Assembly (NCBI GenBank): GCA_001464625.1
Contig: LNFJ01000053.1
Location: forward strand, 1-39,739
DNA: 39,739 nt
DNA from: Bacteroidia bacterium Ga0077558
GTDB lineage: Bacteria > Bacteroidota > Bacteroidia > Chitinophagales > Chitinophagaceae
Direction of reading: 5' to 3'
The notes beneath the pieces were generated by a model that saw only the letters and a list, made by a program, of their open reading frames with translations, was not told where the DNA came from and did not search any database. Both the position numbers and the translations under genes were made by a program. Every line of letters begins with the position of its first letter. The stretch's first letter is position 1. Positions 8,263 through 32,367 of the stretch are shown in pieces.

Positions 8263-8327
8263 GCAAAATAGAAGAAACCATGCAAGCAGGCCATGAGACC
8301 CGTTACTCGTAGAAATGATTATTATCA
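8263..8327 (-). promoter_or_regulatory. FNR/FixK-like operator and promoter for the 7598-8245 lipoprotein
   Basis: Palindrome TGAT-TATT-ATCA at 8316-8327 (centre 8321.5). On the minus strand TATTTTGC begins at 8270, exactly 51.5 bp from the centre; it matches TAnnTTTG only if one N is deleted. The predicted start near 8258 leaves a leader of about 13 nt. The same spacing is found at 14674, 17183, 25192 and 32303. Confidence 0.6.
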
Positions 8328-8331
8328 GATA

Positions 8332-9045
8332 CTAGGGGTGACAAATAAGTTGATCAACTGGCGACTGTTGTAATTCAGGACTTATAAAAGGAATTCCCAG
8401 ATTCATTCCTCGTAACACCAGTAATATACCCATAGCTGAAATAAATACCGGCACCAGCTTTTGCAGGGAGATTCCCCAACCAGGCTTTATCATTTGCCCG
8501 GCGTAGCCTGCTAACATCATAGCAGGTAATGTACCTGCACCAAACATAGCCATAAAACCTACACTTTGAAATATTTCTGTAAATGAAAGTGTAGCTGCAA
8601 GAGCAATATAAATCATACCGCAGGGTAGCAAGCCATTGGCCATTCCCATCAATAAAAAGCCAGAAGGCCGGATTGCAGATTTTAATAAAGTTGATATCTG
8701 ACGTTGAACAAAAAAATAAAATCGGTTAAGAAATTTTAAATGAATTGTTCTATGCCGTAGAAAATACAGAACTGAAAGCCCAATTATAAATGCTCCCATT
8801 ATAATTGAAAAGTATTGCTGATAACCGGCAATGTAAATTCTTCTTCCTGCCAAACCGAATAATAAACCAATACCTGAATAGGTAATAATTCTACCGAACT
8901 GGTATAACAACAGAGAAAGAATTTTTTTTGTTTTTGATAAATGATGAATCGGCAAGGCCAGGCTTAATGGGCCACACATGCCTATACAATGAAGGCTGCC
9001 TGCAGCACCCAATACAAATCCGGATATTAGTACAGGCAAGAGCAT
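8332..9045 (-). CDS. TauE/SafE-like (DsbD_2/UreH-type) membrane protein of the cbb3 cluster
   Basis: The 237-aa protein has about six hydrophobic segments. Near the N-terminus, GAAGSLHCIGMCGPLSLAL places HCxxxC in the first membrane segment, a hallmark of the sulfite-exporter-like/DsbD_2 proteins regularly found beside ccoGH. GLLPCGMIYIALAATL in the second half is the repeat of that motif. The cysteines and methionines suggest metal (copper) or thiol chemistry serving oxidase assembly, which is inferred from context. Its ATG overlaps the ccoH stop by one base, making it the last gene of the ccoS-ccoNO-Q-P-G-H unit. Confidence 0.82.
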   Translation of the reverse strand: MLLPVLISGFVLGAAGSLHCIGMCGPLSLALPIHHLSKTKKILSLLLYQFGRIITYSGIGLLFGLAGRRIYIAGYQQYFSIIMGAFIIGLSVLYFLRHRTIHLKFLNRFYFFVQRQISTLLKSAIRPSGFLLMGMANGLLPCGMIYIALAATLSFTEIFQSVGFMAMFGAGTLPAMMLAGYAGQMIKPGWGISLQKLVPVFISAMGILLVLRGMNLGIPFISPELQQSPVDQLICHP

Positions 9046-9482
9046 TACAATACAGTCAGGCTTTTTTCAGCAAAATAATTTTTTCCTCCGCTGCTCCAGT
9101 TGATTTTCACTGTGTAGCTGCCCGGTGAAATGACAGTTGGGTGAAAGACTTGTATTCCATTTGTCCCTGGCTGCAACAATAATTTTTTATCTTTTTTCTG
9201 ATCGTAAGCACAATAGAATAGAACATCACCGGAAATATCTTTCTCTTTCATTTCCTGCGGCAATTCTAACGTAATACCGGCATCAGTTTGTTCTATTTTA
9301 ACAGCGGAACTCAATTGATTAACCCGGTTAGTGCCATCAATTACCTCCTGGTAGCGGAGTTCACTTTTATAATAATCTTTCTCCACCAGTTCGTAATTGG
9401 TAGATACGGAACGATAAACCAGGTAGGTCATTCCTGCCCCAAAAGCAATAAAAGTCAGTAAGAGTTTGTTTCCCCAATTCAT
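9045..9482 (-). CDS. ccoH: CcoH/FixH family cbb3 oxidase assembly protein
   Basis: The 145-aa protein has one N-terminal membrane segment (NKLLLTFIAFGAGMTYLVY) and a periplasmic beta-rich domain ending in PGSYTVKINWSSGGKNYFAEK, matching FixH. In other bacteria CcoH associates with the cbb3 oxidase during assembly. It lies 11 bp after ccoG and overlaps the TauE-like gene by one base. The conserved YYKSELRYQE segment near residue 40 is typical of Bacteroidota members. Confidence 0.88.
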   Translation of the reverse strand: MNWGNKLLLTFIAFGAGMTYLVYRSVSTNYELVEKDYYKSELRYQEVIDGTNRVNQLSSAVKIEQTDAGITLELPQEMKEKDISGDVLFYCAYDQKKDKKLLLQPGTNGIQVFHPTVISPGSYTVKINWSSGGKNYFAEKSLTVL

Positions 9483-9493
9483 AACTAATAAGT

Positions 9494-10918
9494 TTAATAT
9501 TTACCAAACGGGCCTGCAAAATTTGTAGTTAGTGTAGTGATTTTTTTATCACCATCATACAGGCCAATCTTTATTTTAAGTTTTCGGCTGTTCACAAATT
9601 TTCGTGGCAGCACTACAAAGAAAGAGCCGGAAGCCTGGTCTTCTTGTTTTAAGTGAATATTGGTGGCGCCAATCAACTCAATTTTTCCAGCATTCTTCGC
9701 TTCACCTTCCAGCTGAAGCGTAACAGGCATATCTTTAATGGTTTTGTTGATTACTTTAATATTAAAAAGATTGCTAAGGCTATCGGCACCTCTTTCCTGG
9801 TACACCATCCCCTTGGTACGGATAATAGTGCCGTCTATATCTTTCCGGCTAATCAATAGTAAAGTAAGAATGCCGGAAAGCAATATCAGCAATACGGTAT
9901 AAAATTTCATCCTTCCGGTATAGCGAAGTTTTTTTCCTTCGGTAATGCCGTTTTCTGATGCATAACGGATTAGCCCTTTGGGGCGATGTACGGCTTCCAT
10001 CATTTTATTACAGGCATCAATACAGGCCGTGCATCCCACACACTCCATTTGTGTACCATTGCGAATGTCAATACCAGTGGGGCACACCTTTATACATTGA
10101 AAACAATCAATACAATCGCCGGTATTTATTTCAGCCACCTGATCTTTTTTGAACTTATCTCTTGGTTCTCCCCGCTTATGATCGTAGGCGACAATCATCG
10201 AGTTTCTGTCGAGCAGCACACTTTGCAAGCGGCCATATGGACATATTACAGTACAAACCTGTTCTCTGAAGTAAGCATATACACCATAGAAAATAGCAGC
10301 AAATAAAATGATAGAAAGAAAACCGACAAAATGTTCAGTAACCGGTTCGCTGATTATTTTTTTCAACTCATCTATTCCGATGATGTAAGCAAGAAAGAAG
10401 TTGGCAATAATAAAGGCCAGTAAAAAAAAGGCGACATGCTTGGTAATCTTCTTTCTTATTTTCTCTGCTGTCCACGGAGAATTACTCAGCATCTTTTGTT
10501 TGGCTGCATCACCTTCTATCAGGTACTCTACTTTGCGAAAGAGCATTTCCATAAAGATTGTTTGCGGGCATACCCATCCGCAAAACAAACGGCCAAAGGC
10601 TGCAGTAAAAAGAACGATGAAGATTATAAACGTAACCATCGTTAAGCCGAAGATGAAAAAATCCTGTGGCCAGAATATTTTTCCGAAAATGATAAACTTA
10701 GCTTCGGGAATATTAAATAGGAAAAGCGGCCTGCCATTCATTTTTATAAATGGTAAAGCAAAAAATAAAGCAAAGAAACCCCAGCTAACCCATGTGCGGA
10801 CATTAAAGAACGGCCCAACAGGTTTTTGTGCAAACACCCATTTCCGTTTTCCCTTTGCATCTATAGTGGCTATCCGGTCACGAAAGGATTCTGCCTGCTG
10901 TTTGGTTTTTGTTTCCAT
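9494..10918 (-). CDS. ccoG: CcoG/FixG, cbb3 oxidase accessory iron-sulfur membrane protein
   Basis: The 474-aa membrane protein is related to RdxA/FixG and is implicated in copper reduction for the cbb3 CuB site. The cysteine motifs are visible: CGWVCPQTIFMEM, CTVICPYGRLQSVLLD, and a ferredoxin pair CIDCFQCIKVCPTGID with CVGCTACIDACNK. There are about five hydrophobic segments (for example residues 43-60, 85-110, 160-180, 195-215 and 340-360) and a C-terminal beta-sandwich of about 110 residues (IgG-like FixG_C). It sits between ccoP and ccoH in the usual order. Length and motifs are intact. Confidence 0.95.
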   Translation of the reverse strand: METKTKQQAESFRDRIATIDAKGKRKWVFAQKPVGPFFNVRTWVSWGFFALFFALPFIKMNGRPLFLFNIPEAKFIIFGKIFWPQDFFIFGLTMVTFIIFIVLFTAAFGRLFCGWVCPQTIFMEMLFRKVEYLIEGDAAKQKMLSNSPWTAEKIRKKITKHVAFFLLAFIIANFFLAYIIGIDELKKIISEPVTEHFVGFLSIILFAAIFYGVYAYFREQVCTVICPYGRLQSVLLDRNSMIVAYDHKRGEPRDKFKKDQVAEINTGDCIDCFQCIKVCPTGIDIRNGTQMECVGCTACIDACNKMMEAVHRPKGLIRYASENGITEGKKLRYTGRMKFYTVLLILLSGILTLLLISRKDIDGTIIRTKGMVYQERGADSLSNLFNIKVINKTIKDMPVTLQLEGEAKNAGKIELIGATNIHLKQEDQASGSFFVVLPRKFVNSRKLKIKIGLYDGDKKITTLTTNFAGPFGKY

Positions 10919-10947
10919 TGTCTTGTTAATAACTAATCTGCGGCGAA

Positions 10948-12108
10948 CTAATTGATCATTACTTTTTTAGAATCAACAGCTGTAGAATCAGTAGCAGGTG
11001 CAGGCTCTTCTTTATACAATTCTCCATCAGGTGCTTTAGGTGTGGCCGGTTTTGTTCCTTTCAGCGTTTTAATATAGCTTGTCAGTTGTGCTATTTGTTT
11101 AGCTGAGAGATCGTCTTTCCAACTTCTCATCCCTTTGCTGGTGCCGTACTTGATTGTTTTAAAAATATCTTTTACACTACCACCGTACAACCAGTAATCA
11201 TCTGCAAGGTTGGGGCCCACGGCATTACCACCACCATCTGCACCATGGCAGGCAGGGCATTTGCTGGGATCCATAAAGATGGCTTTGCCGGCAGCAATAT
11301 CTTCTGCCCCTGTTAGTAGTGTTACAGTGTTTTCGTCCACAGCATCACCTTTCTTTTTGAGGTATTCCTGTACTCTTATTTCAGCCTTTGCAACAGAAGT
11401 TTCATATTCCTGCTTGCTGGAAGGGCCGGTATGAGAAACCTCAAAACGCCACAGGTATACAATTGCAAAAACAATAGTGGCATAGAAACCATACAGCCAC
11501 CATGGTGGGAGACGATTGTTCAACTCACGGATGCCATCATACTCATGCCCTAAATCAAGCTCGGCTTCCTGGCTCACAGGACGAAGTTTATTTACCCTAT
11601 CCCACCAGCTAAGTTTATTGGCTTTTTCTTCAGCAGTTATTACGGGCTGTATCCCTGAGTTTACTTTTTCTTTCTTTAGCAGCGATTTAATATTAATCAA
11701 CAGGGCGATTATAATTAACAGCTCAAGAAATAAAACAGTGACCATTAAGTAAAAGGTAGAAGCGTCCATCCCACCTATATCAGTTGCTTTTTTTACTGTA
11801 GCTTCAGTGGTTGTAGCATCCTGCGCAGTAAGTGATGTATAGCTTGCAAGCAGCAAAAGCAGCGTCATTGCAACTTTGTCACCAGCATTTTCAGTTTTTC
11901 TTTTTTTAAGTTTTATCTCGGCTGCACCAATTACTATATTGGCCAGAATACCAATAACAATTACAAGCAGAGTCATCAATGTAATTAACGTTACTGCTAG
12001 CGGGTTACTAAAGATAGAAGGCACCGGAGGACCACCGGCAAAACTGGCAGTACTAAAAAGCAGTAATGTAGCTATCAGCCCGGAGAGATGTTTTAATTTG
12101 TTTCGCAT
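10948..12108 (-). CDS. ccoP: cbb3 oxidase subunit III (CcoP), single haem c
   Basis: The 386-aa protein has a signal-like N-terminus, two membrane segments (about 34-58 and 118-140), then a further one near residue 208 (WWLYGFYATIVFAIVYLW, the CcoP anchor) and a cytochrome c domain with CPACH at 284-288. Proteobacterial CcoP carries two haem c sites; only one CxxCH is present here, with the extended N-terminal membrane region replacing the usual short one. The C-terminal tail is Pro/Ala/Lys-rich. It lies between ccoQ and ccoG. Confidence 0.92.
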   Translation of the reverse strand: MRNKLKHLSGLIATLLLFSTASFAGGPPVPSIFSNPLAVTLITLMTLLVIVIGILANIVIGAAEIKLKKRKTENAGDKVAMTLLLLLASYTSLTAQDATTTEATVKKATDIGGMDASTFYLMVTVLFLELLIIIALLINIKSLLKKEKVNSGIQPVITAEEKANKLSWWDRVNKLRPVSQEAELDLGHEYDGIRELNNRLPPWWLYGFYATIVFAIVYLWRFEVSHTGPSSKQEYETSVAKAEIRVQEYLKKKGDAVDENTVTLLTGAEDIAAGKAIFMDPSKCPACHGADGGGNAVGPNLADDYWLYGGSVKDIFKTIKYGTSKGMRSWKDDLSAKQIAQLTSYIKTLKGTKPATPKAPDGELYKEEPAPATDSTAVDSKKVMIN

Positions 12109-12131
12109 ATAAAAATTGTTGCGGTTGGTTA

Positions 12132-12299
12132 TTAATTTTTATTGTCGAGGGGAATTCGGCTCACATCATTGTAGTCTTCTTTTTTGGTTTTGAATACCCA
12201 GGTTAGCATTACTACAAAAAACAAGAAGAAGATGGTTAATGACAACAGCCCCATTATATCTACACCGCTTACTTTTTCTAAATAATTAATGAACTTCAT
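12132..12299 (-). CDS. ccoQ: CcoQ-like small cbb3 oxidase subunit (55 aa)
   Basis: A short frame in the gap between ccoNO and ccoP encodes one membrane helix (MGLLSLTIFFLFFVVMLTWVF) after a charged N-terminus, followed by KTKKEDYNDVSRIPLD. The SRIPLD end resembles other CcoQ/FixQ proteins. The start ATG at 12299 follows the ccoNO stop by six bases. CcoQ stabilises the oxidase complex in other bacteria. Confidence 0.85.
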   Translation of the reverse strand: MKFINYLEKVSGVDIMGLLSLTIFFLFFVVMLTWVFKTKKEDYNDVSRIPLDNKN

Positions 12300-12305
12300 A
12301 CACTT

Positions 12306-14468
12306 TTATTTATTTGTTTGGGTAATGGGTTTTGGTTCTGCTTGTATATCTTTTCCGAGCCGTTGCAGATAGGCTATCAATGCAATTATTTCCCTGTCTG
12401 ATGATGTTTCAATCTTATCTTTTTTCAGATTAGCTGTAATAGAATCGGCTTGCTTCATCAAATCAACATTCGCTATTTTGTCGTAATCTTTTGGATAAGG
12501 AACCCCCAATGTTCTCATGGCCCTGATTTTTGCAGGTGTAGATGAAATGTCCAGTTTATTATCCAGCAGCCATACATATCTTGGCATGATGGAACCTGGT
12601 GATGTTAAACGAGGATCATACATATGTGTGTAGTGCCAGGAGTCAGGTCGTTTGTTTTTATCAGCACCTTCCCTTGCCAGGTCTGGACCGGTTCTTTTAC
12701 TTCCCCATTGAAAAGGATGGTCATATACAAACTCACCGGCTTTTGAATACTCTCCATACCTGGCTACTTCATCGCGGAAAGGCCGTATCATTTGTGAGTG
12801 ACAGGTATAACAACCTTCTCTTACATAAATATCTCTTCCCTGCAATTCCAACGGAGTGTAAGGCTTTACACTGGTAATAGTTGGCACATTGGATTTTATC
12901 AGAAAGGTGGGAATCATTTGTACTAATCCACCAATAGCAACAAGAATTAAACTAAGTACCAGCATGGTTAATGGCTTTCTTTCAATAACACGGTGCCAGT
13001 ATTCTTTTTTCTTTGACACTGCTTTTACCAATGCAGGTGCTTCTGCTGCTTCATTTGCAATAAATTTCCCTTGTGCAATGGTTTTATAAAGATTATACAC
13101 CATGATAAATGCCCCAATCAGGTAGAGAGTGCCGCCAACGCTACGGGCAATGTACATAGGTATAATATTGGTGACAGTTTGCATAAAGTCAAACTTCAAT
13201 TGTCCTTCCAATGTAAATTGTTTCCACATCAGGCTTTGTTCAAACCCTGCCCAATACAAAGGCACCGCATAAATAATGATACCGATGGTGCCCAGCCAAA
13301 AGTGATTGGTAGCTAATTTCTTTGAATACAAAGTGGTTCCCCACATTTTAGGAATCATATAATATAGAATGGCAAATGCCATAAAACCATTCCATCCTAA
13401 TCCCCCTATGTGCACATGGCCTATCGTCCAATCGCTAAAGTGTGAGATGGCATTTACGCTTTTCAAACTGAGTAATGGTCCTTCAAATGTGGCCATACCA
13501 TAACAAGTAATCGCAACTACCATAAATTTTAAAACAGGATCTTCTCTAACTTTATCCCATGCACCACGGAGGGTAAATAAACCATTCAGCATACCGCCCC
13601 AGCTTGGTGCAATAAGCATAATGGAAAAAACAACACCAAGTGATTGTGCCCAGTCGGGTAATGCAGTGTATAACAAATGGTGAGGGCCTGCCCAGATATA
13701 AATAAAAATCAATGCCCAGAAGTGAATAATGGAAAGTTTGTAAGAGTAAACGGGGCGATTAGCTGCTTTTGGCAGAAAATAATACATTAAACCCAGTACT
13801 GGTGTGGTAAGAAAAAAGGCTACAGCATTATGTCCATACCACCATTGTACCAATGCATCTTGTACGCCTGCATACCAGCTATAGCTTCCGGTAGCAGAAT
13901 AAGGCAGTTCGATAGATCGAACGATATGTAATAACGCAACAGTAACCCAGGTAGCAATGTAAAACCAGATAGCAACATACAAATGCCTTTCCCTTCTTTT
14001 CAATATAGTGCCAAACATATTGATACCGAATATTACCCATACTAATGCAATGGCAATATCAATTGGCCAAATTAATTCTGCGTATTCAGCACCATTGTTG
14101 AGACCAAGTGGTAAGGTAATGGCCGCAGCAACAATTATCAGTTGCCAGCCCCAGAAATGAATCCAGCTTAACCTATCACTGTACATTCTTGTTTTGCACA
14201 ATCGTTGCAGTGAGTAATAAATACCTGCAAAGGAAGCGTTACCTACAAAAGCAAAAATAATAGCATTGGTATGCAACGGACGAAGACGGCCAAAAGTAGT
14301 AGGTGCCCAGTTCAAACTGATGGCCGGATAATACATTTGGATAGCAGCCCAAAGGCCCACTATCATACCTACGATGCCGAAAACAACGGTAGCATAGCCA
14401 AATGCTTTTACAATCTTGTTGTCGTAATAAAATTTTTCAATCTGCAGGTCTTGATTTGTTTCTTGCAT
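12306..14468 (-). CDS. ccoNO: Fused cbb3 oxidase subunits I and II (CcoNO)
   Basis: The 720-aa protein joins the catalytic haem-copper subunit CcoN (about residues 1-480) to the cytochrome c subunit CcoO (about 500-700). CcoN features include RLRPLHTNAIIFAF (low-spin haem ligand region), WWYGHNAVAFFLTTP (CuB histidine), WAGPHHLLYTALPDW (CuB His pair) and HFSDWTIGHVHIGGLGWNG (haem ligands). The CcoO haem site is C553-YTC-H557 in EGCYTCHSQMIRPF, with IMPRY supplying the Met ligand. The fusion is common in Bacteroidota. Together with CcoQ and CcoP it forms the high-affinity terminal oxidase that reduces oxygen at the inner membrane. Confidence 0.96.
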   Translation of the reverse strand: MQETNQDLQIEKFYYDNKIVKAFGYATVVFGIVGMIVGLWAAIQMYYPAISLNWAPTTFGRLRPLHTNAIIFAFVGNASFAGIYYSLQRLCKTRMYSDRLSWIHFWGWQLIIVAAAITLPLGLNNGAEYAELIWPIDIAIALVWVIFGINMFGTILKRRERHLYVAIWFYIATWVTVALLHIVRSIELPYSATGSYSWYAGVQDALVQWWYGHNAVAFFLTTPVLGLMYYFLPKAANRPVYSYKLSIIHFWALIFIYIWAGPHHLLYTALPDWAQSLGVVFSIMLIAPSWGGMLNGLFTLRGAWDKVREDPVLKFMVVAITCYGMATFEGPLLSLKSVNAISHFSDWTIGHVHIGGLGWNGFMAFAILYYMIPKMWGTTLYSKKLATNHFWLGTIGIIIYAVPLYWAGFEQSLMWKQFTLEGQLKFDFMQTVTNIIPMYIARSVGGTLYLIGAFIMVYNLYKTIAQGKFIANEAAEAPALVKAVSKKKEYWHRVIERKPLTMLVLSLILVAIGGLVQMIPTFLIKSNVPTITSVKPYTPLELQGRDIYVREGCYTCHSQMIRPFRDEVARYGEYSKAGEFVYDHPFQWGSKRTGPDLAREGADKNKRPDSWHYTHMYDPRLTSPGSIMPRYVWLLDNKLDISSTPAKIRAMRTLGVPYPKDYDKIANVDLMKQADSITANLKKDKIETSSDREIIALIAYLQRLGKDIQAEPKPITQTNK

Positions 14469-14495
14469 AACTGCTATTATTTAGTTTGATTTGGT

Positions 14496-14654
14496 TTATT
14501 CTTTAGATGAAGAAGGTTTGTCATCAAAAAGGATTCGGGATGGTGGCGAGTAATCATCCTCAAATTGTCCTGATTTTACTCCCCATAAAAAAGCGATCAG
14601 GAATAAAGCGGCTACAGTAATGCTGGCAATCAGGAGAATAATAATGACACTCAT
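14496..14654 (-). CDS. ccoS: cbb3 oxidase assembly protein CcoS (52 aa)
   Basis: A short frame with an N-terminal membrane helix (MSVIIILLIASITVAALFLI), then FLWGVKSGQFEDDYSPPSRIL. The W-x-V-K-S-G-Q-F-(D/E)D motif is the CcoS/FixS signature. CcoS is needed for cofactor insertion into CcoN. It is the first gene of the structural operon, 27 bp before ccoNO, with its own operator 73 bp upstream, so expression need not depend on read-through from ccoI. Confidence 0.9.
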   Translation of the reverse strand: MSVIIILLIASITVAALFLIAFLWGVKSGQFEDDYSPPSRILFDDKPSSSKE

Positions 14655-14673
14655 GTTCTTTTTTAAGATGGCG

Positions 14674-14738
14674 TAAAAGTAAAAGCTGGGCTAACGGTAA
14701 TACATAACAGGTGTCAACAGGAAAACTGATTTTTATCA
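14674..14738 (-). promoter_or_regulatory. FNR/FixK-like operator and promoter for ccoS-ccoNO-Q-P-G-H
   Basis: Palindrome TGAT-TTTT-ATCA at 14727-14738 (centre 14732.5). TACTTTTA on the minus strand starts at 14681, 51.5 bp from the centre, matching five of the six fixed positions of TAnnTTTG. The predicted start near 14669 leaves a leader of about 15 nt to ccoS. Confidence 0.68.
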
Positions 14739-14764
14739 TCTAAAAAAGATGATGCAAAACAAGA

Positions 14765-17173
14765 TTACAGGTTCATGCGGCGGGCTAGCAAGCTACTGCT
14801 GCCAAATGTGATCAATAAAATACTTAGTGAACTGGTTGGCATCAGGATAGCAGCAATAAGTGGAGACAGATTTCCCTGCACAGCAAAGAATAATCCGATT
14901 ATATTATACACAATGGATAATACAAAGCTTGCCACCACAATATTTCGGTTAGCATGGCAAAGCCGTATAAATTTCGGAAGCAGGGCCAGTTGCTTTGCTT
15001 CTATGATGCCATCGCTGGAAGGAGTAAAATTATTGGTTTGTTCTGCAACAGCTACACCAATGTTACTTTGCTTTAAAGCCCCGGCATCATTCAGGCCATC
15101 ACCGATCATCATTACTTTTTCTCCCTGGTCTTGCAGGTGTCTAATATAACGTAGCTTATCTTCTGGTTTTTGATGAAAGCGAAGGGTGGCCTTTTTTCCC
15201 AATAGATGCTGCAGGTTATTTTTCTCGGCATCATTATCGCCTGATAAGACAGAAAGCTGGTAATCCTTTTTTAATTGGTGGAGCAATCCAGAAATTTCAC
15301 CCCTGTAATGATTGCTGAACTGAAAAAAACCTTGTAATCGACTTTCAATACTAACAAAAATGGCCGTTCCGGTTTGCCGGCTTGCCAAACGGGTTACAAA
15401 ATGATAAGAGCCCAGCTTGATTAAATCATTTTGCACAAACCCTTCAATACCTTCGCCAATTGTTTCCTTAAACCCCGCTACTTGTGGTAGCTTTCCTTCT
15501 GCAAGATGTTTTGCCAATGCTTTGCTTAATGGATGAGAAGAACAGGCAGCCAATGCGGCTACCTGTTGCAGTTGATAAGCAGTAAGGCTGGTTCCTTCAT
15601 AAGTAATATGTTGATGTTGGGTGGAAGTAAGTGTTCCGGTTTTATCAAAAACAATATGGGTTACTTTGGCAACTTCTTCAATGGTTTGTGCACTGCGCAG
15701 GTAAAAATGATTACGGCCCAGTATCTGCAAGATATTTCCGTTTGTAAAAGTATTGGATAATAACAATGCGCATGGACAGGCAATAATAAATATAGCGGTT
15801 ACGGCAGGCCATAATTTGGCTGGATCATTTAGTTGCCAGTAAATAGCTGTGGAGATGGCAATAACGAAAACGATATAGGTAAAGTATCGGCTAAGTAAGT
15901 GAACAAACGAAACCTTTTTGTTTGCTTCATTCTTTTTGAATTCATCTCTGTTCCAAAGTTTGGTAAGATAACTCTGCGCCACTTCCTTTACTACCAGAAT
16001 TTCAATATTACCTTCCGTTTGTTTACCACCCGCATACACTAACTCGCCTACTTCTTTTAATACGGGTAGCGATTCGCCAGTTACAAAACTGTAGTCAATA
16101 AAAGCTTTTCCTTTTGTAAGAATACCATCCGCCGGAATCAATTCTTCATTGTGAATAAGCAGTGTATCTCCCGGTTTTATATCGGGCAACGCAGTTGGTG
16201 TTTCTACATCATCTTTAGTTATCGAAACTGCTATTGGAAAATAAGAGGTATAATCTCTTTCAAATGAAAGTTGGCGATAGGTTTTGTCTTGCAGAATTCT
16301 ACCGGCAAGCATAAAGAATACAATACCCGTCATAGAATCAAAATAGCCGCCGCCAGTACCGCTTATTACTTCATAGGCACTGCGGATAAAAGTAATAATG
16401 ATAGCGAGGGCAATTGGCGCATCAATATTCAGGAATTTATGCTTCAGGCTTTTGAATGATGAAATATAAAAAGGAAGTGCTGAGTACAACAAAACAGGAA
16501 TGGCTAAACCAAAATTCAGCCAGCGAAAAATGGTTCGCAATCCAACTTCGGTAGTATCAATACCCAGGTATTCCGGAAAACTCATCAGCATAATATTACC
16601 AAAGCAAAACCCTGCTATGCCCAACTGCAGTACCATACTTTTATTGATGGCAGGTCTTTTTTCCTTCAGGTCGTTCAGGCTGATATAAGGTTCATATCCA
16701 ATGCTGGTAAGTGTTTCGGCTACTTTTCGGAGAGTGGTTTTGTTAACCAGAAAAACAATGTCTACTTCTTTACGTGTAAAATTTACTTTGCTGGAAATGA
16801 TGCCTTCATCAATACGGTGCAGGTTTTCCAATAAATAAAGACAGGAACTGCAATGCATTTGCGGCAGATAGAGAGTTACATGCACTTGTTTGTCGTTCCT
16901 GAAACTGGTGAGTTTGTTTTGTATTTTCTCATCCTCTAAAAATGCAAATTTGTCTTTCCGCACATTAATACGTTGACTGATACCTGGATTTTTATTCAGA
17001 TCATAGTAATCGCAGAGATCACTTTGATTCAAGATCTGGTACACCATTTTGCATCCCTCACAACAAAAATTCTTTTCCTGAATATTAATTTTATCGTTGC
17101 TACATGATTCGCCGCAGTGGTAGCATAGTATTTTATTGTCGGTAAAATTTGACCCTGTCATAGTTTTATCCAA
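14765..17173 (-). CDS. ccoI: CcoI/FixI copper-exporting P-type ATPase for cbb3 assembly
   Basis: The 802-aa P1B ATPase moves copper across the inner membrane for oxidase maturation. The N-terminus has a Cys-rich segment (CYHCGESC and CCEGCKMVY), then a heavy-metal domain with MHCSSC near residue 105. The membrane core holds IIACPCALLLSN (CPC metal site), then DKTGTLTS (phosphorylated Asp), SSHPLSKAL and MIGDGLNDAGAL. All catalytic motifs are intact. The Cys-rich N-terminal cluster before the HMA domain is typical of the CcoI/FixI subgroup. It is transcribed ahead of ccoS, with its own FNR-type box. Confidence 0.94.
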   Translation of the reverse strand: MDKTMTGSNFTDNKILCYHCGESCSNDKINIQEKNFCCEGCKMVYQILNQSDLCDYYDLNKNPGISQRINVRKDKFAFLEDEKIQNKLTSFRNDKQVHVTLYLPQMHCSSCLYLLENLHRIDEGIISSKVNFTRKEVDIVFLVNKTTLRKVAETLTSIGYEPYISLNDLKEKRPAINKSMVLQLGIAGFCFGNIMLMSFPEYLGIDTTEVGLRTIFRWLNFGLAIPVLLYSALPFYISSFKSLKHKFLNIDAPIALAIIITFIRSAYEVISGTGGGYFDSMTGIVFFMLAGRILQDKTYRQLSFERDYTSYFPIAVSITKDDVETPTALPDIKPGDTLLIHNEELIPADGILTKGKAFIDYSFVTGESLPVLKEVGELVYAGGKQTEGNIEILVVKEVAQSYLTKLWNRDEFKKNEANKKVSFVHLLSRYFTYIVFVIAISTAIYWQLNDPAKLWPAVTAIFIIACPCALLLSNTFTNGNILQILGRNHFYLRSAQTIEEVAKVTHIVFDKTGTLTSTQHQHITYEGTSLTAYQLQQVAALAACSSHPLSKALAKHLAEGKLPQVAGFKETIGEGIEGFVQNDLIKLGSYHFVTRLASRQTGTAIFVSIESRLQGFFQFSNHYRGEISGLLHQLKKDYQLSVLSGDNDAEKNNLQHLLGKKATLRFHQKPEDKLRYIRHLQDQGEKVMMIGDGLNDAGALKQSNIGVAVAEQTNNFTPSSDGIIEAKQLALLPKFIRLCHANRNIVVASFVLSIVYNIIGLFFAVQGNLSPLIAAILMPTSSLSILLITFGSSSLLARRMNL

Positions 17174-17182
17174 GATAGGATG

Positions 17183-17247
17183 CTAAAATACAGAGGCTGT
17201 ATTCCAGGGGAAGTGAGCAAGTTCAAAGACGGAACTGATTTTTATCA
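17183..17247 (-). promoter_or_regulatory. FNR/FixK-like operator and promoter for ccoI
   Basis: Palindrome TGAT-TTTT-ATCA at 17236-17247 inside ACTGATTTTTATCAGG. TATTTTAG on the minus strand starts at 17190, 51.5 bp from the centre (five of six fixed positions). The predicted start near 17178 leaves only about five nt before the ATG. Confidence 0.66.
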
Positions 17248-18055: not shown

Positions 18056-18085
18056 GATAATTTATTTATTAGTCATTAAAATTGT

Positions 18086-18853: not shown

Positions 18854-18862
18854 AAAAAAAGT

Positions 18863-21895: not shown

Positions 21896-21946
21896 GAGAA
21901 AGCTGATTCGTTTAAGAAAAATCCGGGTAACCTAAAAGGATAACTT

Positions 21947-22516: not shown

Positions 22517-22536
22517 AAAAAATATTTTTATAGTTT

Positions 22537-22571
22537 AAAGTGAGCAGGCTTTCGTCAGGCCTGCTCACTTT
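22537..22571 (-). other. Perfect 13-bp inverted repeat between nosZ and fasciclin gene
   Basis: AAAGTGAGCAGGC (22537-22549) and GCCTGCTCACTTT (22559-22571) flank a nine-base loop. It begins six bases after the nosZ stop codon. No T-run follows on the minus strand, so it looks like an RNA processing or stability element, or a leaky terminator, that would set nosZ apart from the downstream genes. Confidence 0.75.
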
Positions 22572-22576
22572 GATAA

Positions 22577-24580: not shown

Positions 24581-24619
24581 ATTTGTGTTTATTAAATGAA
24601 GAGAATAATTGCTGATTTT

Positions 24620-25105
24620 TTATTTAACCCCATCGTTTGAACGCATAAATTCTAATAGCTGGCGGGATTCATCTTTTGTAATATTCTGGTTTGGCATGCG
24701 TACCAAACATTGCTCTAACAATTTTTGTGCTTCAGGGTCTGTCTCCAGCATCATATCCACATTAGTTATCATATTCATTACCCAATGTGGCTCCCTTTTT
24801 TGCGTTACACCTTTCCATCCAGGTCCTACTAACCTTTCATCAGTTAATTTGTGACAAGACTGACATTTTAATTCATAAATACCTTTTCCTGCAGTTACCC
24901 AGTTGGCATTGAGTGGAGTGGTAAGAGTAACTTCTTCAGGCTTAACTTCTGTTCCGTGTGCTTCAGCTTGCTCTTTGGGTTGTGCTTCTATTACCGGGGA
25001 GTTATCTTTTTTTTCTTCACTACCACCACAGGAACTGATAATTAAGGCAGATGAAAAAAAAGCAAGGACAATAATACTTGAAAGAAAAAGGTTAATACGT
25101 TTCAT
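24620..25105 (-). CDS. Mono-haem cytochrome c lipoprotein, first gene of the nos operon
   Basis: The 161-aa protein has a lipoprotein signal with the ISSCGG lipobox near residue 26, an acidic linker, then a cytochrome c domain with CQSCH at 81-85 and the probable axial Met 137 in CLVRMPNQN. GPGWKGV between them is typical of class I cytochromes. It lies 39 bp before nosZ, so it likely carries electrons from the quinol side to NosZ CuA; NosR is absent from this cluster. Confidence 0.9.
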   Translation of the reverse strand: MKRINLFLSSIIVLAFFSSALIISSCGGSEEKKDNSPVIEAQPKEQAEAHGTEVKPEEVTLTTPLNANWVTAGKGIYELKCQSCHKLTDERLVGPGWKGVTQKREPHWVMNMITNVDMMLETDPEAQKLLEQCLVRMPNQNITKDESRQLLEFMRSNDGVK

Positions 25106-25191: not shown

Positions 25192-25286
25192 CAAATGTAT
25201 TCGTGTAAATTTCTTCCCAAAATGAGGTTTGTCAACTTGTTTTGTGATATTGATCAGTTAATCTTAACGTCTGAATCGTAACTTCA
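25192..25286. promoter_or_regulatory. Shared FNR/FixK-like operator between nos operon and Rrf2 gene
   Basis: Palindrome TGAT-ATTG-ATCA at 25245-25256 (centre 25250.5). Leftward, TACATTTG starts at 25199, 51.5 bp away, a perfect TAnnTTTG with TTTG at 25221-25218 upstream. Rightward, TAACTTCA starts at 25279, 28.5 bp away (four of six fixed positions). One bound regulator could therefore activate nos from a class I position and the Rrf2 gene from a class II position. Confidence 0.65.
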
Positions 25287-25774: not shown

Positions 25775-25816
25775 TGACGTAAATCATATTTATAGATAAA
25801 TCATCCATTTAATTTG
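25775..25816 (+). promoter_or_regulatory. FNR/FixK-like operator and promoter for ric copy 2
   Basis: TGAC-GTAA-ATCA at 25775-25786, one base off the core. TAATTTGC starts at 25810, 29.5 bp from the centre, and matches TAnnTTTG if one N is missing. The predicted start near 25822 leaves about 13 nt before the ATG at 25835. Confidence 0.5.
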
Positions 25817-25834
25817 CCGGCTGGATTTATCATT

Positions 25835-27440: not shown

Positions 27441-27455
27441 TTTTTTAGTTTTAAT

Positions 27456-27498
27456 TAAAGTTAAAAGTGATTACTACGTATTTAACTGATTTTAGTCA
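27456..27498 (-). promoter_or_regulatory. FNR/FixK-like operator and promoter for usp
   Basis: TGAT-TTTA-GTCA at 27487-27498 inside AACTGATTTTAGTCAGA. TAACTTTA on the minus strand starts at 27463, 29.5 bp from the centre (five of six fixed positions), a class II layout. The predicted start near 27451 leaves about 11 nt to the ATG. Confidence 0.65.
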
Positions 27499-27555
27499 GA
27501 TAGTCGCTTGATTTCTAAAACCTCCAAAAATTATTTTGTAAATCATTCCAGGGAC

Positions 27556-27598
27556 TGATTCCAGTCAGGTAAACCCGGATGTTTACCATTTAAATTTG
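27556..27598 (+). promoter_or_regulatory. FNR/FixK-like operator and promoter for the 27619-28892 operon
   Basis: TGAT-TCCA-GTCA at 27556-27567 inside ACTGATTCCAGTCAGG. A perfect TAAATTTG starts at 27591, 29.5 bp from the centre, placing the box at about -41.5. The predicted start near 27603 leaves about 16 nt to the ATG. Confidence 0.7.
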
Positions 27599-27618
27599 AA
27601 TTACAAAACTTTAAACGT

Positions 27619-27831: not shown

Positions 27832-27872
27832 CTTTTTGATTAAGTTGAATATCAATTTCAAATGCTAAAGCA

Positions 27873-28376: not shown

Positions 28377-28379
28377 TAT

Positions 28380-28892: not shown

Positions 28893-29012
28893 TTCGTCGC
28901 CGTTTAATAATGGGATTAGGCTATTTAACTATAGCATACCAGCATTCAGAGAATATCTTTTCAGTTTACCCTACTATTTGTTATTTTGGATATAAATAAA
29001 CACAACACCCGT

Positions 29013-30239
29013 ATGCTGGATCAGGTACACATGACCTCTTTGTTTGAAAATGCAACAGAAGGTATCATTCTCACAAACGGGAAAGGAAATATTGTTATGA
29101 CCAACCCTGCAATAGAAAGAATGTTTGGTTATAATAGCGAAGAGCTGATAAGCAAGCCAATAGAAATATTAATACCAGATAAATTTCGGCCTCACCATCA
29201 CCAATTGAGAGAAGGGTTTTATAACAAACCATCCAACAGGTCAATGGGTCATGGCCGGGATTTACATGGAAGGAAAAAAGATGGTTCTGAGTTGCCGGTT
29301 GAGGTTAGTTTGAGCCATTACAAGCGGGACGATGAATTGTTTGTGATTGCCTTTATCGTAGATATCACCCAGCGAAAAGAAATTGAAATAAGTATGCTTA
29401 AACAGAAAGCAGAGTTAGAAAAGATCACCGATAAAATCCGCCAGCTGAATGCAGACCTCGAAATAAAAGTAGAAGAACGTACCTTGATTTTACGGGAGGC
29501 GCTGCAAAAACTAGAGCAGTCACAACAAGAACTTAGCGAAGCGTTAGATAAAGAAAGACAGTTGAATGAGATCAAAAGCAGGTTTGTATCAATGGCATCA
29601 CATGAATTTCGTACTCCTCTTACCACAGTGCTTTCCTCGGCAAGCCTCCTGTCAAAATATACCGCTACCGAAGAACAGGAAAAAAGAGATAAGCATATAC
29701 AGCGGATAAAGAATTCGGTCAACAACTTGAATGATATACTGGAAGATTTTCTTTCACTAGGAAAACTAAATGAAGGAAGGGTGGACAAGAAATTGGAAGA
29801 GGTAAATGTGAAAGATCTATTGACAGAAACAGTTGACGAAATGAAGACGCAATTAAAAAAAGATCAATCCTTTATAGTTAACTGTAATGAAAATTGCTAT
29901 GCTTTTACGGATAAAAAGCTCCTTAGAAACATATTGATCAACCTTGTAAGCAATGCTATTAAATTTTCGGAGGAAGGAAAAAATATTGCGATTGATGCTA
30001 AAACTTCAAATAACAAAGTTGTAATGGCAGTAAGTGATGAAGGAATTGGAATCGGTAAGGATGATCAGGAACACCTTTTTACCAGTTTTTTCAGAGCCGC
30101 CAATGCAGTTAATATTCAGGGAACTGGTTTAGGTTTGCACATTGTAAAGCGGTATATAGATTTGTTGGGCGGAGAAGTAAAATTGGAAAGTGAACTTAAT
30201 AAAGGAACAACCATTACTTTTAGCATTCCGATAAAATAA
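29013..30239 (+). CDS. PAS-domain sensor histidine kinase, FixL/DosP-like
   Basis: With the ATG at 29013 the protein is 408 aa; an in-frame TTG at 28986 would add nine residues. One PAS domain (about 5-125) contains LIPDKFRPHHH and MGHGRDLHGRKKDGSELPVEV. H62 aligns by eye with the haem ligand of DosP (RPAH) and FixL, and R82 with the FixL regulatory Arg in GI(G/D)R. No membrane segment is visible, so it is cytoplasmic. A coiled coil (about 125-185) leads to the HisKA site H197 in MASHEFRTPLTT. The ATPase has NLVSNAIKFS, DEGIGIG and GTGLGLHIV. It lies seven bases before the receiver-CRP gene, its obvious partner. Haem binding is inference. Confidence 0.88.
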   Translation: MLDQVHMTSLFENATEGIILTNGKGNIVMTNPAIERMFGYNSEELISKPIEILIPDKFRPHHHQLREGFYNKPSNRSMGHGRDLHGRKKDGSELPVEVSLSHYKRDDELFVIAFIVDITQRKEIEISMLKQKAELEKITDKIRQLNADLEIKVEERTLILREALQKLEQSQQELSEALDKERQLNEIKSRFVSMASHEFRTPLTTVLSSASLLSKYTATEEQEKRDKHIQRIKNSVNNLNDILEDFLSLGKLNEGRVDKKLEEVNVKDLLTETVDEMKTQLKKDQSFIVNCNENCYAFTDKKLLRNILINLVSNAIKFSEEGKNIAIDAKTSNNKVVMAVSDEGIGIGKDDQEHLFTSFFRAANAVNIQGTGLGLHIVKRYIDLLGGEVKLESELNKGTTITFSIPIK

Positions 30240-30246
30240 CAACATT

Positions 30247-31302
30247 ATGAAATCAGTTCTAGTTATTGATGACAACCAGGATATCAGGGAAAACACTGCA
30301 GAAATTTTAGAGCTGGCAGGCTACAAAACTTTCACTGCAGAAAATGGAAAAAAAGGAGTGGAAACTGCTCAACGGGAAAAACCAGATGTAATAGTATGTG
30401 ATATTATGATGCCTGAACTGGACGGCTACGGGGTGCTTCATCTTTTGCGCAAAAATTCAGAAACACAGCATATTCCTTTTGTTTTTCTTACAGCTAAAAC
30501 TGAACGAAGTGATTTTCGGAAAGGAATGGAAATGGGCGCCGACGATTATATTACTAAACCCTTTGAAGATATTGAACTTTTGAATGCCATTGAGATCCGG
30601 CTTAAGAAGGCTGAAGTGTTGAATAATAAATATGCATCTTCTAAGCAAGGCATCAACGAGTTTATAAAAGATGTAAAGAATGCAGGCCTTGTAAATCACC
30701 TATCCGAACAATATAATACAGACAATTATGCGAAAAAACAAGTGCTTTACCAGGAAGGCAAGCGACCAAGGGTACTTTTTTATTTAGTAAAAGGAAAAGT
30801 AAAAGCGGTTAAGTCGCATGAAGATGGAAAAGAATATATTACCGACCTATTCACTGATGGAGATTTTATTGGATACACTGCTTTGATTGAAGATAAAAAC
30901 TATGACGATTCTGCTATAATTCTGGAAGAAGCAGAAATCTTACAGTTGCCGAGGGAAGATTTTATGCAAATGATTTATGGTAATATGGATGTGGCAGCTA
31001 AGTTTATTCAGATCATTACCCAAAACGTAAAAGAGAAAGAAGACAGATTACTAAGTCTTGCCTATAGTTCGCTTCGCAAAAGGGTGGCTAAAGCACTTGT
31101 TGATATACAATCAAAGTTTAATGCAGAAAGCCCAACTAAGCCTATAGAAATTTCGAGGGAAGATTTTGCACATTATGTTGGCACAGCTACCGAATCCTTA
31201 ATACGTACACTCAGTGATTTTAAAGCTGAGAAATTAATAGAAATTAAGGAGGGGAAGATTTCCATTGTTAACCTGGAAAAATTAAAAAATCTTCTTTACT
31301 AA
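30247..31302 (+). CDS. Response regulator with receiver fused to CRP/FNR DNA-binding module
   Basis: The 351-aa protein has three parts: a receiver (1-122) with acidic pair in VIDDNQD, phosphoacceptor D52 in VCDIMMPELDGYG, FLTAKT and the Lys in ITKPF; a cNMP-binding-like beta barrel (about 160-270) with VLYQEGKRPRVLFYLVKGKVKAV and FTDGDFIGYTAL; and a CRP-type winged helix (about 285-351) with SREDFAHYVGTATESLIRTLSDF. E316 and R320 have the spacing of the E and R that read TGA/TCA half-sites in CRP and FNR. FNR cysteines are absent, so activity should follow phosphorylation. It is the best candidate to bind the eight TGAY-N4-RTCA sites in this window. Confidence 0.9.
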   Translation: MKSVLVIDDNQDIRENTAEILELAGYKTFTAENGKKGVETAQREKPDVIVCDIMMPELDGYGVLHLLRKNSETQHIPFVFLTAKTERSDFRKGMEMGADDYITKPFEDIELLNAIEIRLKKAEVLNNKYASSKQGINEFIKDVKNAGLVNHLSEQYNTDNYAKKQVLYQEGKRPRVLFYLVKGKVKAVKSHEDGKEYITDLFTDGDFIGYTALIEDKNYDDSAIILEEAEILQLPREDFMQMIYGNMDVAAKFIQIITQNVKEKEDRLLSLAYSSLRKRVAKALVDIQSKFNAESPTKPIEISREDFAHYVGTATESLIRTLSDFKAEKLIEIKEGKISIVNLEKLKNLLY

Positions 31303-31422
31303 AAAGCGATCTATCTTTTTTATTTCAAATAGAAAGCACACACATTCTTAGTGCTTCTTATAGCACCCCTGTTTGCTAAAATTTCAGTTCATTCCTCCAT
31401 AGTCTCCATACTTATCGAAATA

Positions 31423-31863
31423 CTAGTGGTCAGCATCCCGATTTAAATCATAGTCATCAACAACATCGTTACCCCTTTTGTCAGTAGATAATTCTCTGCC
31501 ATGGTTGTTTTGCTGCAGCAAAGTCCAGTTGTCTGTCATTGTTGTTTCTAACCAAAGATTACCCGATTTACGGAATACCTGCACGGCTAGTTTGAAATTA
31601 TCCTTAAACAATTTTTCGAGGTCACTAACTTTCATGTCCTCAGAAATTTCTACATCTTCATCCGGTATTGACAATTTACTATCACCTATTTTTCTATTAG
31701 CTGGAATAAGTTGGTTCACAGAAAAATCAGACCGGGAAAAAGAACGGTTATTAAAAAACTCCAATTTGAGAAAAGGAAATGCACTATTGAATTCCTTTTG
31801 AATATCACTGATAAGGCGATTTGACGAAATATGTAAGAGCATAGAATTAATGTTAATAGACAT
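31423..31863 (-). CDS. Conserved-looking protein of unknown function, paired with small heat-shock gene
   Basis: The start is placed at MSININSMLLHISS (146 aa); upstream in-frame ATGs lie well inside the heat-shock gene. The frame overlaps that gene by 11 bases, so translation is probably coupled. It is soluble and has no signal peptide. Visible segments are LISDIQKEFNSAFPFLKLEFF, PDEDVEISEDMKVSDLEKLFKDNF and VQVFRKSGNLWLETTMTDNWTLLQQNN, the last with a regular beta-strand pattern. An acidic tail ends in DDYDLNRDADH. I do not recognise the family. Operon position suggests a stress role. Confidence 0.7.
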   Translation of the reverse strand: MSININSMLLHISSNRLISDIQKEFNSAFPFLKLEFFNNRSFSRSDFSVNQLIPANRKIGDSKLSIPDEDVEISEDMKVSDLEKLFKDNFKLAVQVFRKSGNLWLETTMTDNWTLLQQNNHGRELSTDKRGNDVVDDYDLNRDADH

Positions 31864-32284
31864 ATACAGTTGTCTTTTCTTTGTTTTCATTTGTATTACC
31901 ACGGGGAATACGAATAATTAATTCTCCGTTGCAGTATTTCGCATGTGCAAGTACCACATCGGCGTCTTCCGGCAAAGCAAATGCCCTCGTCCACTCCGTA
32001 TAATTATATTCACAACGGTCGCTTACACTACTGACTTCCGAGTTTTTTTCGGATTTTGCCGAAATAGAAATTACAGATTGCTCTATCCCAATATTAAAAT
32101 CTTCCCGGTGCATTCCCGGAGAAGCAATTTCTAAAAGATATTCCGTTGCAGTTTCTATAATATTAACAGCAGGAATGCAAAGTGCTTCTGATGCACTAGT
32201 ACTGCCATCGTTAACCTGTTTAAAGGGTAAAACTGCAGATATACCCTTTTTAATTTCCTTGTTTGTTGCTGATCCCGGATACAT
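31853..32284 (-). CDS. Small heat-shock protein (Hsp20/alpha-crystallin)
   Basis: The 143-aa protein has an alpha-crystallin domain from about residue 40: ETATEYLLEIASPGMHREDFNIGI (strands 2-3), VISISAKSE, EWTRAFALPEDADV and the terminal NGELIIRIPRG, in which the usual GVL motif is GEL. It works as a holdase chaperone in the cytoplasm. An FNR-type palindrome with a -7 box at the common spacing lies upstream, so expression under low oxygen is predicted. It is divergent from the hemerythrin gene at 32450. Confidence 0.9.
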   Translation of the reverse strand: MYPGSATNKEIKKGISAVLPFKQVNDGSTSASEALCIPAVNIIETATEYLLEIASPGMHREDFNIGIEQSVISISAKSEKNSEVSSVSDRCEYNYTEWTRAFALPEDADVVLAHAKYCNGELIIRIPRGNTNENKEKTTVYVY

Positions 32285-32302
32285 AATAATAATTTTATTT
32301 TA

Positions 32303-32367
32303 CGAAAATAAAGCTGTGCATACGCCTTAGGAATGATGTGCCACATAAGTTATCATGATTAAAATCA
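32303..32367 (-). promoter_or_regulatory. FNR/FixK-like operator and promoter for the Hsp20 gene
   Basis: TGAT-TAAA-ATCA at 32356-32367 (centre 32361.5). TATTTTCG on the minus strand starts at 32310, 51.5 bp from the centre (five of six fixed positions). The predicted start near 32298 leaves about 14 nt to the ATG. No box at either spacing was found for the plus-strand hemerythrin gene. Confidence 0.65.

Follow-up and report, generated by a model that had tools for sequence, protein, structure and literature searches.

The window, a stretch of 39,739 nucleotides from Bacteroidia bacterium Ga0077558, carries two putative target blocks on its minus strand: a cbb3 oxidase block identified through Pfam (8332..17173; DsbD-like, ccoH, ccoG, ccoP, fused ccoNO, ccoS, and ccoI) and a clade II nos block identified through Pfam and NCBIfam (17318..25105), in which a cytochrome c gene comes first and ric1 last. 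On the plus strand, Pfam matches place a soluble PAS-HisKA-HATPase kinase, whose PAS domain is FixL-like and bears a haem histidine (H71), at 28986..30239, and a receiver-cNMP_binding-HTH_Crp fusion with recognition helix GTATESLIRTLSDF at 30247..31302. The fusion is our candidate regulator; a preliminary description of this DNA named none, and the candidate sits within the window it covered.

That description reported eight TGAY-N4-RTCA palindromes amid respiratory genes. Every coordinate was verified (8316, 14727, 17236, 25245, 25775, 27487, 27556, and 32356), and the surrounding gene set is indeed respiratory. Matches to TGAYNNNNRTCA number 10 in the window, whereas 100 shuffles averaged 2.77 and never attained that count; the two beyond the noted eight, at 20654 and 26391, both fall inside open reading frames. 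A word scan of 80 loci, conducted without prior bias, returned TGAT-N4-ATCA as the top inverted repeat (97 occurrences versus a median of 6 at other gaps), and TGAC-N4-GTCA occurred 36 times versus 1 over other gaps.

Spacing between the palindromes and the -7 box

Recomputing the distance from palindrome centre to the first T of the TAnnTTTG-like box reproduced the values originally given: 51.5 bp at boxes 8270, 14681, 17190, 25199, and 32310, 29.5 bp at 25810, 27463, and 27591, and 28.5 bp at 25279. The two spacings are separated by two helical turns, as had been proposed. The preliminary description called for an unbiased scan and a comparison with shuffled intergenic DNA. Among the 243 intergenic palindromes of the window and 79 loci (327 site-orientations), only 51.5 and 29.5 stood out: exact TANNTTTG occurred 44 times at the former and 33 times at the latter, with 3 at the next offset and a mean of 1.1 over 98 offsets. 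Neither distance offered a box with one mismatch or fewer at 136 of these 327 site-orientations. Across 747 intergenic segments from the window and 79 related loci, TGAY-N4-RTCA accompanied by TAnnTTTG had 47 occurrences at 51.5 bp and 33 at 29.5 bp, compared with a mean of 0.01 each over 100 dinucleotide shuffles.

Within the genome's own sequence, exact TGATN4ATCA with exact TANNTTTG at a gap of 20–50 yielded 2+2 matches versus 1+1 for the reversed-pattern control, a weak test because most boxes there are imperfect; as a detector in this genome, the single strict palindrome with an exact box gave no clear signal and was dropped. This near-control result, and the fact that many window boxes are imperfect, as the preliminary description had itself remarked, and were sought at expected places, might suggest an artefact of composition or of where boxes were looked for, but the bias-free scans and shuffles put sites and spacings above background and refute that reading for both, leaving it a negligible probability.

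A composite tandem promoter

Aligning promoters revealed a partner for most palindromes. In 108 aligned promoters of the 51.5-bp kind, a second TGA-N6-TCA lies exactly 22 bp closer to the box, and in 81 of the 29.5-bp kind the inner half of such a dyad is seen 22 bp farther out; at 29.5, most of the former show a further dyad, and at 51.5 most of the latter have an upstream dyad, complete or half. For exact dyads, a separation of 22 bp was counted 98 times and the next most frequent separation 4 times. When promoters were chosen on the remaining 15 letters, allowing at most one mismatch there, the half-sites, each tested without selection on itself, were fully intact in 129/145, 129/143, 123/168, and 122/144 cases. 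This conservation, together with the aligned columns, shows that 51.5 and 29.5 mark the two dyads of a single tandem pair; two distances are seen because requiring TGAY-N4-RTCA picks the better-preserved member.

The established unit is thus TGA-N6-TCA, N10, TGA-N6-TCA, N23, TAnnTTTG, with dyad centres at about -63.5 and -41.5. Of 160 intergenic tandem pairs, 131 are flanked at N23, on one side or both (19 on both), by a box matching at least 5 of 6 letters, against an off-phase rate of 0.7%. In 149 genomes, a linker of N12 gave 119 matches versus 846 for N10. At up to 3 mismatches in 18 letters, the composite unit occurs 8+14 times in the genome's own sequence versus 1+4 for the control. The palindromes belong to one rigid promoter design that is widespread in the class Bacteroidia.

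We predicted transcription starts as the first T of the box plus 12; the accessible text of a Flavobacterium study (PMC9723704) puts the -7 box at -12 to -5. By this measure, the dyad 29.5 bp from the first T is centred at -41.5, the class II activator position (about -41.5). The preliminary description had likened the two distances to alternative class I and class II promoters, with a single dimer at either about -63.5 or -41.5, depending on the promoter. Class I CRP/FNR promoters have a lone upstream dimer, usually near -61.5; here, an inner dyad accompanies the upstream one in most cases. The alternative accords with the two sharp peaks obtained when one strict palindrome is required, with a ric2 promoter in the window that has the -41.5 dyad only, and with usp and YgaP-like promoters that retain only an outer half-site. 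It is contradicted by column profiles in which the partner dyad shows up at the alternative position, by the exact 22-bp pairs and intact half-sites, and by the phased box at most tandem pairs, and we consider it highly improbable.

In the window, the second dyad, missed in the preliminary description, accompanies seven of the eight palindromes at a distance of 22 bp, matching 6/6 letters at two sites, 5/6 at three, and 4/6 at two, and is absent at 25775. Predicted leaders are mostly 5–17 nt, in keeping with the short leaders first proposed, with 82 nt before the nos operon. On the minus strand, the unit at 8263..8327 (3/18 mismatches; leader 13 nt) precedes gene 7598-8245 and consists of a 6/6 dyad at 8316-8327, a 5/6 inner dyad, TAACGGGTCTCA, and box TATTTTGC; the one orthologue of this gene found in the loci lacks the unit. 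Upstream of ccoS (FixS Pfam match, ATG 14654), the minus-strand unit at 14674..14738 has 2 mismatches, an outer dyad of 6/6, an inner dyad of 5/6, box TACTTTTA, and a predicted leader of 15 nt. The ccoI unit (17183..17247, minus strand) has a single mismatch, two 6/6 dyads, and box TATTTTAG, with a predicted leader of 5 nt (TTG 17173) or 17 nt (ATG 17161).

The cytochrome c/nosZ operon is preceded by a minus-strand unit without mismatches (25192..25256; predicted leader 82 nt), composed of two 6/6 dyads and the perfect box TACATTTG. Read toward rrf2 on the plus strand (25223..25286), the same dyads have 4 mismatches at N23, the box TAACTTCA at 25279 being 1 bp short, and a predicted leader of 16 nt; one dyad pair probably serves the divergent nos and rrf2 promoters. 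Before ric2, a single dyad, TGACGTAAATCA, and box TAATTTGC at 29.5 occupy 25775..25817 of the plus strand (predicted leader 13 nt; ATG 25835), with no recognizable upstream dyad at this promoter. The usp unit (27456..27520, minus strand; 3 mismatches; predicted leader 11 nt) joins a 6/6 inner dyad to an outer dyad of only 4/6 (TTTTAGAAATCA) and box TAACTTTA. The unit at 27534..27598 on the plus strand (2 mismatches; predicted leader 16 nt), with a 6/6 inner dyad, a 4/6 outer dyad (TTTTGTAAATCA), and box TAAATTTG, precedes a DUF2892 gene with a YgaP-like_TM Pfam match (ATG 27619). Flavodoxin, kinase, and regulator genes follow on the same strand, and the YgaP-like gene may be co-transcribed with the kinase. 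The hsp20 unit (32303..32367, minus strand; 2 mismatches; predicted leader 14 nt) has an outer dyad of 6/6, an inner dyad of 5/6, and box TATTTTCG.

A weak plus-strand unit at 32380..32445, before the hemerythrin gene at 32450, was absent from the preliminary list; with 4 mismatches and its box 1 bp off, it is not significant alone, since 10 block-shuffled windows together gave 10 matches at 4 mismatches.

Conservation across Bacteroidia

Conservation at orthologous promoters, proposed at the outset as a check, is established for several targets: the unit is present at 25/31 ccoI, 12/15 usp, 7/9 rrf2, and 12/21 hsp20 loci, as well as at 5/9 cytochrome c/nosZ operons and, in full, at 10/22 ric2 loci. 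None of 171 operon-internal cco and nos genes has it. It precedes 9 of 57 kinase genes and 6 of 79 fusion genes, which means that autoregulation is not a general feature.

With up to 2 mismatches allowed, 221 of the 295 Bacteroidia genomes contain the unit, for a total of 1504 matches compared with 47 for reversed-pattern controls; genome G220 alone contributes 86. Genomes with a full receiver-CRP protein average 8.5 matches (142 genomes) versus 0.96 where the match is weak or absent (89 genomes), presence being called at an E-value cut-off of 1e-60 and the genomes not being independent. Exceptions are few in both directions: 8 of the 142 fusion-bearing genomes lack any match within 2 mismatches, and 8 of the 89 others have at least four. 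Among the latter that we probed, two, G051 and G122, yielded no CRP homologue at 1e-5. A separate set of 89 genomes outside Bacteroidia contains 33 matches versus 12 controls, spread over 22 genomes, which indicates little or nothing there.

Candidate regulator and proposed mechanism

The domain make-up of the fusion is clear. Matches to PF00027 (1.5e-19), PF13545 (2.1e-14), and PF00325 (7.6e-6) assign it to the CRP/FNR superfamily, and its receiver (PF00072, 2e-30) has the phospho-acceptor set of response regulators; D9, D52, T82, K104, and the recognition helix show conservation of 95% or more across 81 rows. The CRP/FNR family that tracks unit abundance has the recognition helix TATExxIR. 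FNR reads DNA through ExxSR; the fusion instead has E316, I319, and R320 (ExxIR), and the flanking base is mostly A or C. The receiver occupies the place of FNR's N-terminal cysteine cluster, and no CxxC lies between residues 120 and 200 in any of the 81 rows. The output domain is Crp-type, unlike the GerE/LuxR-type HTH that FixJ joins to its receiver. Where the cAMP pocket of CRP has Arg82-Ser83, the fusion rows have D/E221-S/T/N222 in an alignment made by eye only. For the fusion, no NCBIfam family passed its threshold in the best 25 of 110 matches, no PDB chain among the best 60 of 286 covered receiver and CRP parts together, and a single-sequence structure prediction (mean pLDDT 37) was not usable.

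Among 18 chosen genomes lacking the fusion, 15 yielded a REC-less protein that bears the TATE helix, and 14 of these 15 relatives carry CxxC; the unit co-occurs with this helix family. FNR itself was rejected as this genome's regulator, inspection by eye having found no N-terminal cysteine cluster in its four HTH_Crp_2 genes.

Might different regulators bind the two dyads, or the true reader be a protein that merely co-occurs? The link between unit counts and the family is correlative, with a few exceptional genomes, and this genome encodes three further HTH_Crp_2 proteins. Those three, however, have other recognition helices and lie elsewhere in the tree, one consensus is common to both dyads, and the TATE helix and the unit are shared by unrelated sensor types, all of which makes such an arrangement improbable. 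The activator in this genome is probably the receiver-CRP fusion, switched by a FixL-like oxygen sensor.

The best PDB matches of the kinase PAS domain are the FixL haem-PAS 1d06 (1.8e-14) and DosP, and H71 is present in 61/61 ungapped rows; as judged by sequence, the protein resembles FixL in combining a haem-PAS with proximal histidine and HisKA/HATPase domains. The microaerobic regulon of the preliminary description accordingly stands in part, in its gene content and in this FixL-like kinase, with oxygen as the presumptive signal. The same promoter and regulator could instead respond to nitric oxide or redox state. Haem-PAS domains can bind NO, and two RIC iron-centre repair proteins and hemerythrin are among the targets, as is an Rrf2 regulator somewhat similar to NsrR. 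That the best solved PAS matches are the oxygen sensors FixL and DosP, and that cbb3 oxidase is the most consistent target, renders this signal unlikely.

We favour, with a probability of about three in four, a single composite promoter bound by two dimers of one activator, here the fusion phosphorylated by the FixL-like kinase at low oxygen. At low oxygen, haem in the neighbouring kinase would signal phosphotransfer to the fusion. Two of its dimers would then bind side by side on the same DNA face, at identical CRP/FNR-type dyads 22 bp apart, the inner exactly 23 bp before the Bacteroidota -7 box. The inner dimer, at the class II activator position, would activate transcription by substituting for a -33 element, and the outer dimer would stabilize it cooperatively. 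This control would extend to the cbb3 oxidase and N2O reductase genes, to those for iron-centre repair, and to the Usp and Hsp20 genes. Elsewhere in Bacteroidia, the tandem unit may be read by a REC-less FNR-like protein that carries cysteines and shares this recognition helix. We lean somewhat toward the broader proposal that this is a distinct Bacteroidia class of two-dimer low-oxygen promoter, with the -33 element replaced and Fe-S FNR-type or FixL-driven receiver heads exchangeable.

With its operator, spacing, -7 box, and candidate regulator, such a promoter would give oxygen control in Bacteroidia a countable grammar, from which regulons could be predicted, including those with clade II N2O reductase, an enzyme relevant to greenhouse gas consumption. 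It also poses the questions of why there are two dimers, why exactly 22 bp separate them, and how a single promoter design came to be read by two dissimilar sensor heads.

We found no literature describing such a tandem operator or receiver-CRP oxygen regulator in Bacteroidota, and a subscription paper could describe either. In the accessible text of PMC8510549, the CRP/FNR homologues of Flavobacteriales and Saprospiraceae are classed as MalR-like, and neither receivers nor tandem sites are mentioned. HcpR and HcpR2 of Bacteroides and others also belong to the CRP/FNR family, but their operators, TTGACnnnnGTCAA or GTAACnnnnGTTAC in the portion of PMC1274295 available, differ from the tandem unit. 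As at FNR and other class II promoters, a TGA..TCA inverted repeat is centred at about -41.5 and the activator probably contacts RNA polymerase; unlike them, the unit includes a second dyad 22 bp upstream, TGA is flanked by A or C where TTGAT has a T, and the fusion has no Cys motif. Class III CRP promoters likewise employ more than one activator dimer, at tandem sites of varied spacing, whereas here the distance is fixed at 22 bp and common to many genes and genera.

The closest parallel is rhizobial FixL-FixJ-FixK, which shares a haem-PAS kinase relative, a receiver protein, a CRP/FNR-family DNA reader, and cbb3 oxidase (fixNOQP-type) and fixI-type targets. It differs in phylum and promoter type, and here receiver and CRP reader are fused, with a LuxR/GerE-type FixJ absent. 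The available text of PMC6710368 gives the cascade order as FixLJ-FixK; phosphorylation of the receiver head by a FixL-like kinase would shorten this cascade to two proteins, compressing FixL to FixJ to FixK into one step.

An operator of two dyads at a fixed distance from the -7 box

The preliminary description of this contig had placed eight TGAY-N4-RTCA palindromes at two fixed distances from -7 boxes; all eight positions are correct and the arithmetic of the distances holds. The window contains 10 palindromes versus 2.77 expected by chance, a number reached in 0 of 100 shuffles, and the genome it comes from (G000, 4.08 Mb) carries 116 copies of TGATN4ATCA versus 46 of the reversed pattern. 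The strict combination of palindrome and box is unremarkable across this genome, because most boxes there depart from TAnnTTTG.

We fetched 80 loci, extending at most 10 kb per side and centred on relatives of a window regulator gene, and called genes and intergenic DNA by a simple ORF rule. Among all 4-letter inverted repeats with gaps of 0–12 in the intergenic DNA of these loci, TGAT-N4-ATCA ranked first (97 versus a median of 6), followed by TGAC-N4-GTCA (36 versus 1). Dyads (TGA-N6-TCA) are flanked as ATGA-N6-TCAT (69) and CTGA-N6-TCAG (32) more often than as TTGA-N6-TCAA (13), and their flank therefore differs from that of the classical FNR box. An unbiased scan of the window and 79 loci (near-identical L009 excluded) recovered the two proposed spacings: measured from dyad centre to first T, the exact Bacteroidota -7 element, TAnnTTTG, occurred 44 times at 51.5 bp and 33 times at 29.5 bp, the next most frequent offset having 3 occurrences. 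In a comparison using the identical 747 segments, 47 and 33 occurrences at these distances were observed versus 0.01 in dinucleotide shuffles.

Alignment of the 108 promoters whose box lies at 51.5 bp revealed a second dyad conserved exactly 22 bp downstream (column frequencies TGA.86/.81/.87, TCA.97/.86/.97), and in 81 promoters with a box at 29.5 bp, C and A are conserved 22 bp upstream, at the expected inner half of another dyad. No -33 TTG signal was seen between inner dyad and box in the aligned promoters. We refer to the full arrangement (dyad, N10, dyad, N23, TAnnTTTG; 18 scored letters) as the unit. When exact intergenic dyads were paired regardless of any box, 98 pairs lay 22 bp apart, followed by 23 bp with 4; a further 9 pairs at 22 bp fell outside the intergenic mask. 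When selection is on the other 15 letters only, each of the four half-sites is intact in 73–90% of cases. Across 160 intergenic dyad pairs, a box matching 5/6 letters or more stands at N23 on one side of 112, on both sides of 19 and on neither side of 29, the off-phase rate being 0.7%. The two-sided arrangement recurs in the window, where one pair (25192–25286) appears to serve both divergent promoters, nos and rrf2. A third dyad (at least 5/6 letters) lies another 22 bp away in 12 of the 160 pairs; G270:C4:65227-65282 has three consecutive dyads in 22-bp steps. PMC9723704 places the -7 box of Flavobacterium at -12 to -5, and the dyad centres would therefore fall at -63.5 and -41.5.

Units in the window and at orthologous promoters

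With no more than 3 mismatches in the 18 letters, seven window promoters match the unit. Block shuffling of the window ten times yielded 0 units at this threshold, 10 at 4 mismatches and 62 at 5. An eighth match, at 17214 (+), reads the ccoI pair in the opposite direction, towards a poor box, and was left uncounted. Two promoters carry a second dyad with 6/6 letters, three have one with 5/6 and two one with 4/6; at the ric2 promoter none is recognisable. Predicted leaders are mostly 11–17 nt, the exceptions being ccoI (5 or 17) and nos (82). Beyond the window, a few more units lie upstream of genes in the same genome, two of them (contig C85) before putative Usp-like proteins, as judged by eye.

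Orthologues were examined for a unit at ≤3 mismatches within 260 bp upstream in the 80 loci, L009 included; these were selected for the regulator, and the test thus covers near neighbours only. The promoter pattern proposed for the window is conserved before ccoI (25/31), usp (12/15), rrf2 (7/9) and hsp20 (12/21). Units also precede ric1 (10/21), ric2 (10/22), the nos head gene (5/9), g31423 (12/39), the kinase gene (9/57), ccoNO (6/32), the regulator gene itself (6/79) and hemerythrin (1/2). For eleven cco and nos genes in operon-internal or following positions, 0 of 171 orthologues have a unit, and the single orthologue in the loci of the gene at 7598–8245 is without one.

The window also bears a SAM riboswitch (604–721 (+), Rfam RF00162, 82.1 bits) upstream of an ORF at 1192–2517, two tRNA genes (7458–7531 (+) and 39059–39147 (-), Rfam RF00005), and a single 720-aa ORF (12306–14468) that fuses ccoN and ccoO (COX1 plus FixO domains).

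A kinase and a receiver–CRP fusion

The candidate regulator (30247–31302) joins receiver, cNMP_binding and HTH_Crp domains; its phospho-acceptor set and its helix GTATE-IRTLSDF are ≥95% conserved in 81 rows. E316 and R320 occupy the places of FNR E209 and R213, and I319 that of S212. FNR S212 reads the outer T of TTGAT, and its replacement by isoleucine would fit the absence of an outer T from the operator here. The adjacent gene (28986–30239) encodes a soluble PAS kinase, whose best solved PAS matches are FixL (1d06, 1.8e-14) and DosP; H71 corresponds in the alignment to the haem histidine of FixL and is kept in 61 of 61 ungapped rows.

The most likely mechanism is an activation route of which we infer every step from haem binding on. 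Low oxygen would free the haem-PAS of the kinase, which would then phosphorylate the receiver of the fusion. Two fusion dimers would bind adjacently, two turns apart, with the inner dimer at the class II position; they would bring RNA polymerase to a promoter that lacks a -33 element. The two dimers may touch, and the receiver may mediate such a contact; a single-sequence structure model of the fusion was uninformative. FixL, receivers, CRP/FNR readers, and class II and tandem CRP promoters are already known in kind. In searches of the open-access literature we found neither a fixed two-dimer promoter used with two sensor types across Bacteroidia nor the shortened FixL-FixJ-FixK route proposed here.

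Spread of the unit with its candidate regulator family

Units with ≤2 mismatches occur in 221 of 295 Bacteroidia genomes (1504 matches versus 47 reversed controls). By far the most, 86, are in G220 (family f22, genus g28), an unusually large predicted regulon. We searched the identical 295 genomes for the fusion, taking E <1e-60 as full-length. The 142 genomes with a full-length fusion average 8.5 units (134 have one or more, 102 four or more), the 64 with a best match of 1e-28 to 1e-60 average 3.3, and the 89 with a weaker or no match average 0.96 (33 have one or more, 8 four or more); unit count follows fusion presence (Mann-Whitney 2e-26, kinship among genomes being ignored).

From the genomes with units but no full-length fusion we chose 18, and 15 of these encode a protein of 218–275 aa that lacks the receiver and carries a TATExxIR recognition helix, with an N-terminal CxxC in 14 of the 15. 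Of the others, G212 has a different helix, and G051 and G122 gave no match to a CRP-type protein at 1e-5. A free-gap search of 26 genomes with units but no full-length fusion found the 10-bp linker in 36 of 130 among the places listed (next, 11), and changing the linker from 10 to 12 bp reduced matches in 149 genomes from 846 to 119 (reversed control, 23). In a tree of 44 proteins, its bootstrap not yet settled, the fusions group in a single clade (98/96) next to the TATE proteins, and the three other CRPs of the window's genome branch elsewhere. On contigs C39, C41 and C42 of genome G033, a TTCCAAAAAACAG-like core recurs between dyads that lie 44 bp apart near CRP genes; the arrangement may be a different operator or a site of recombination.
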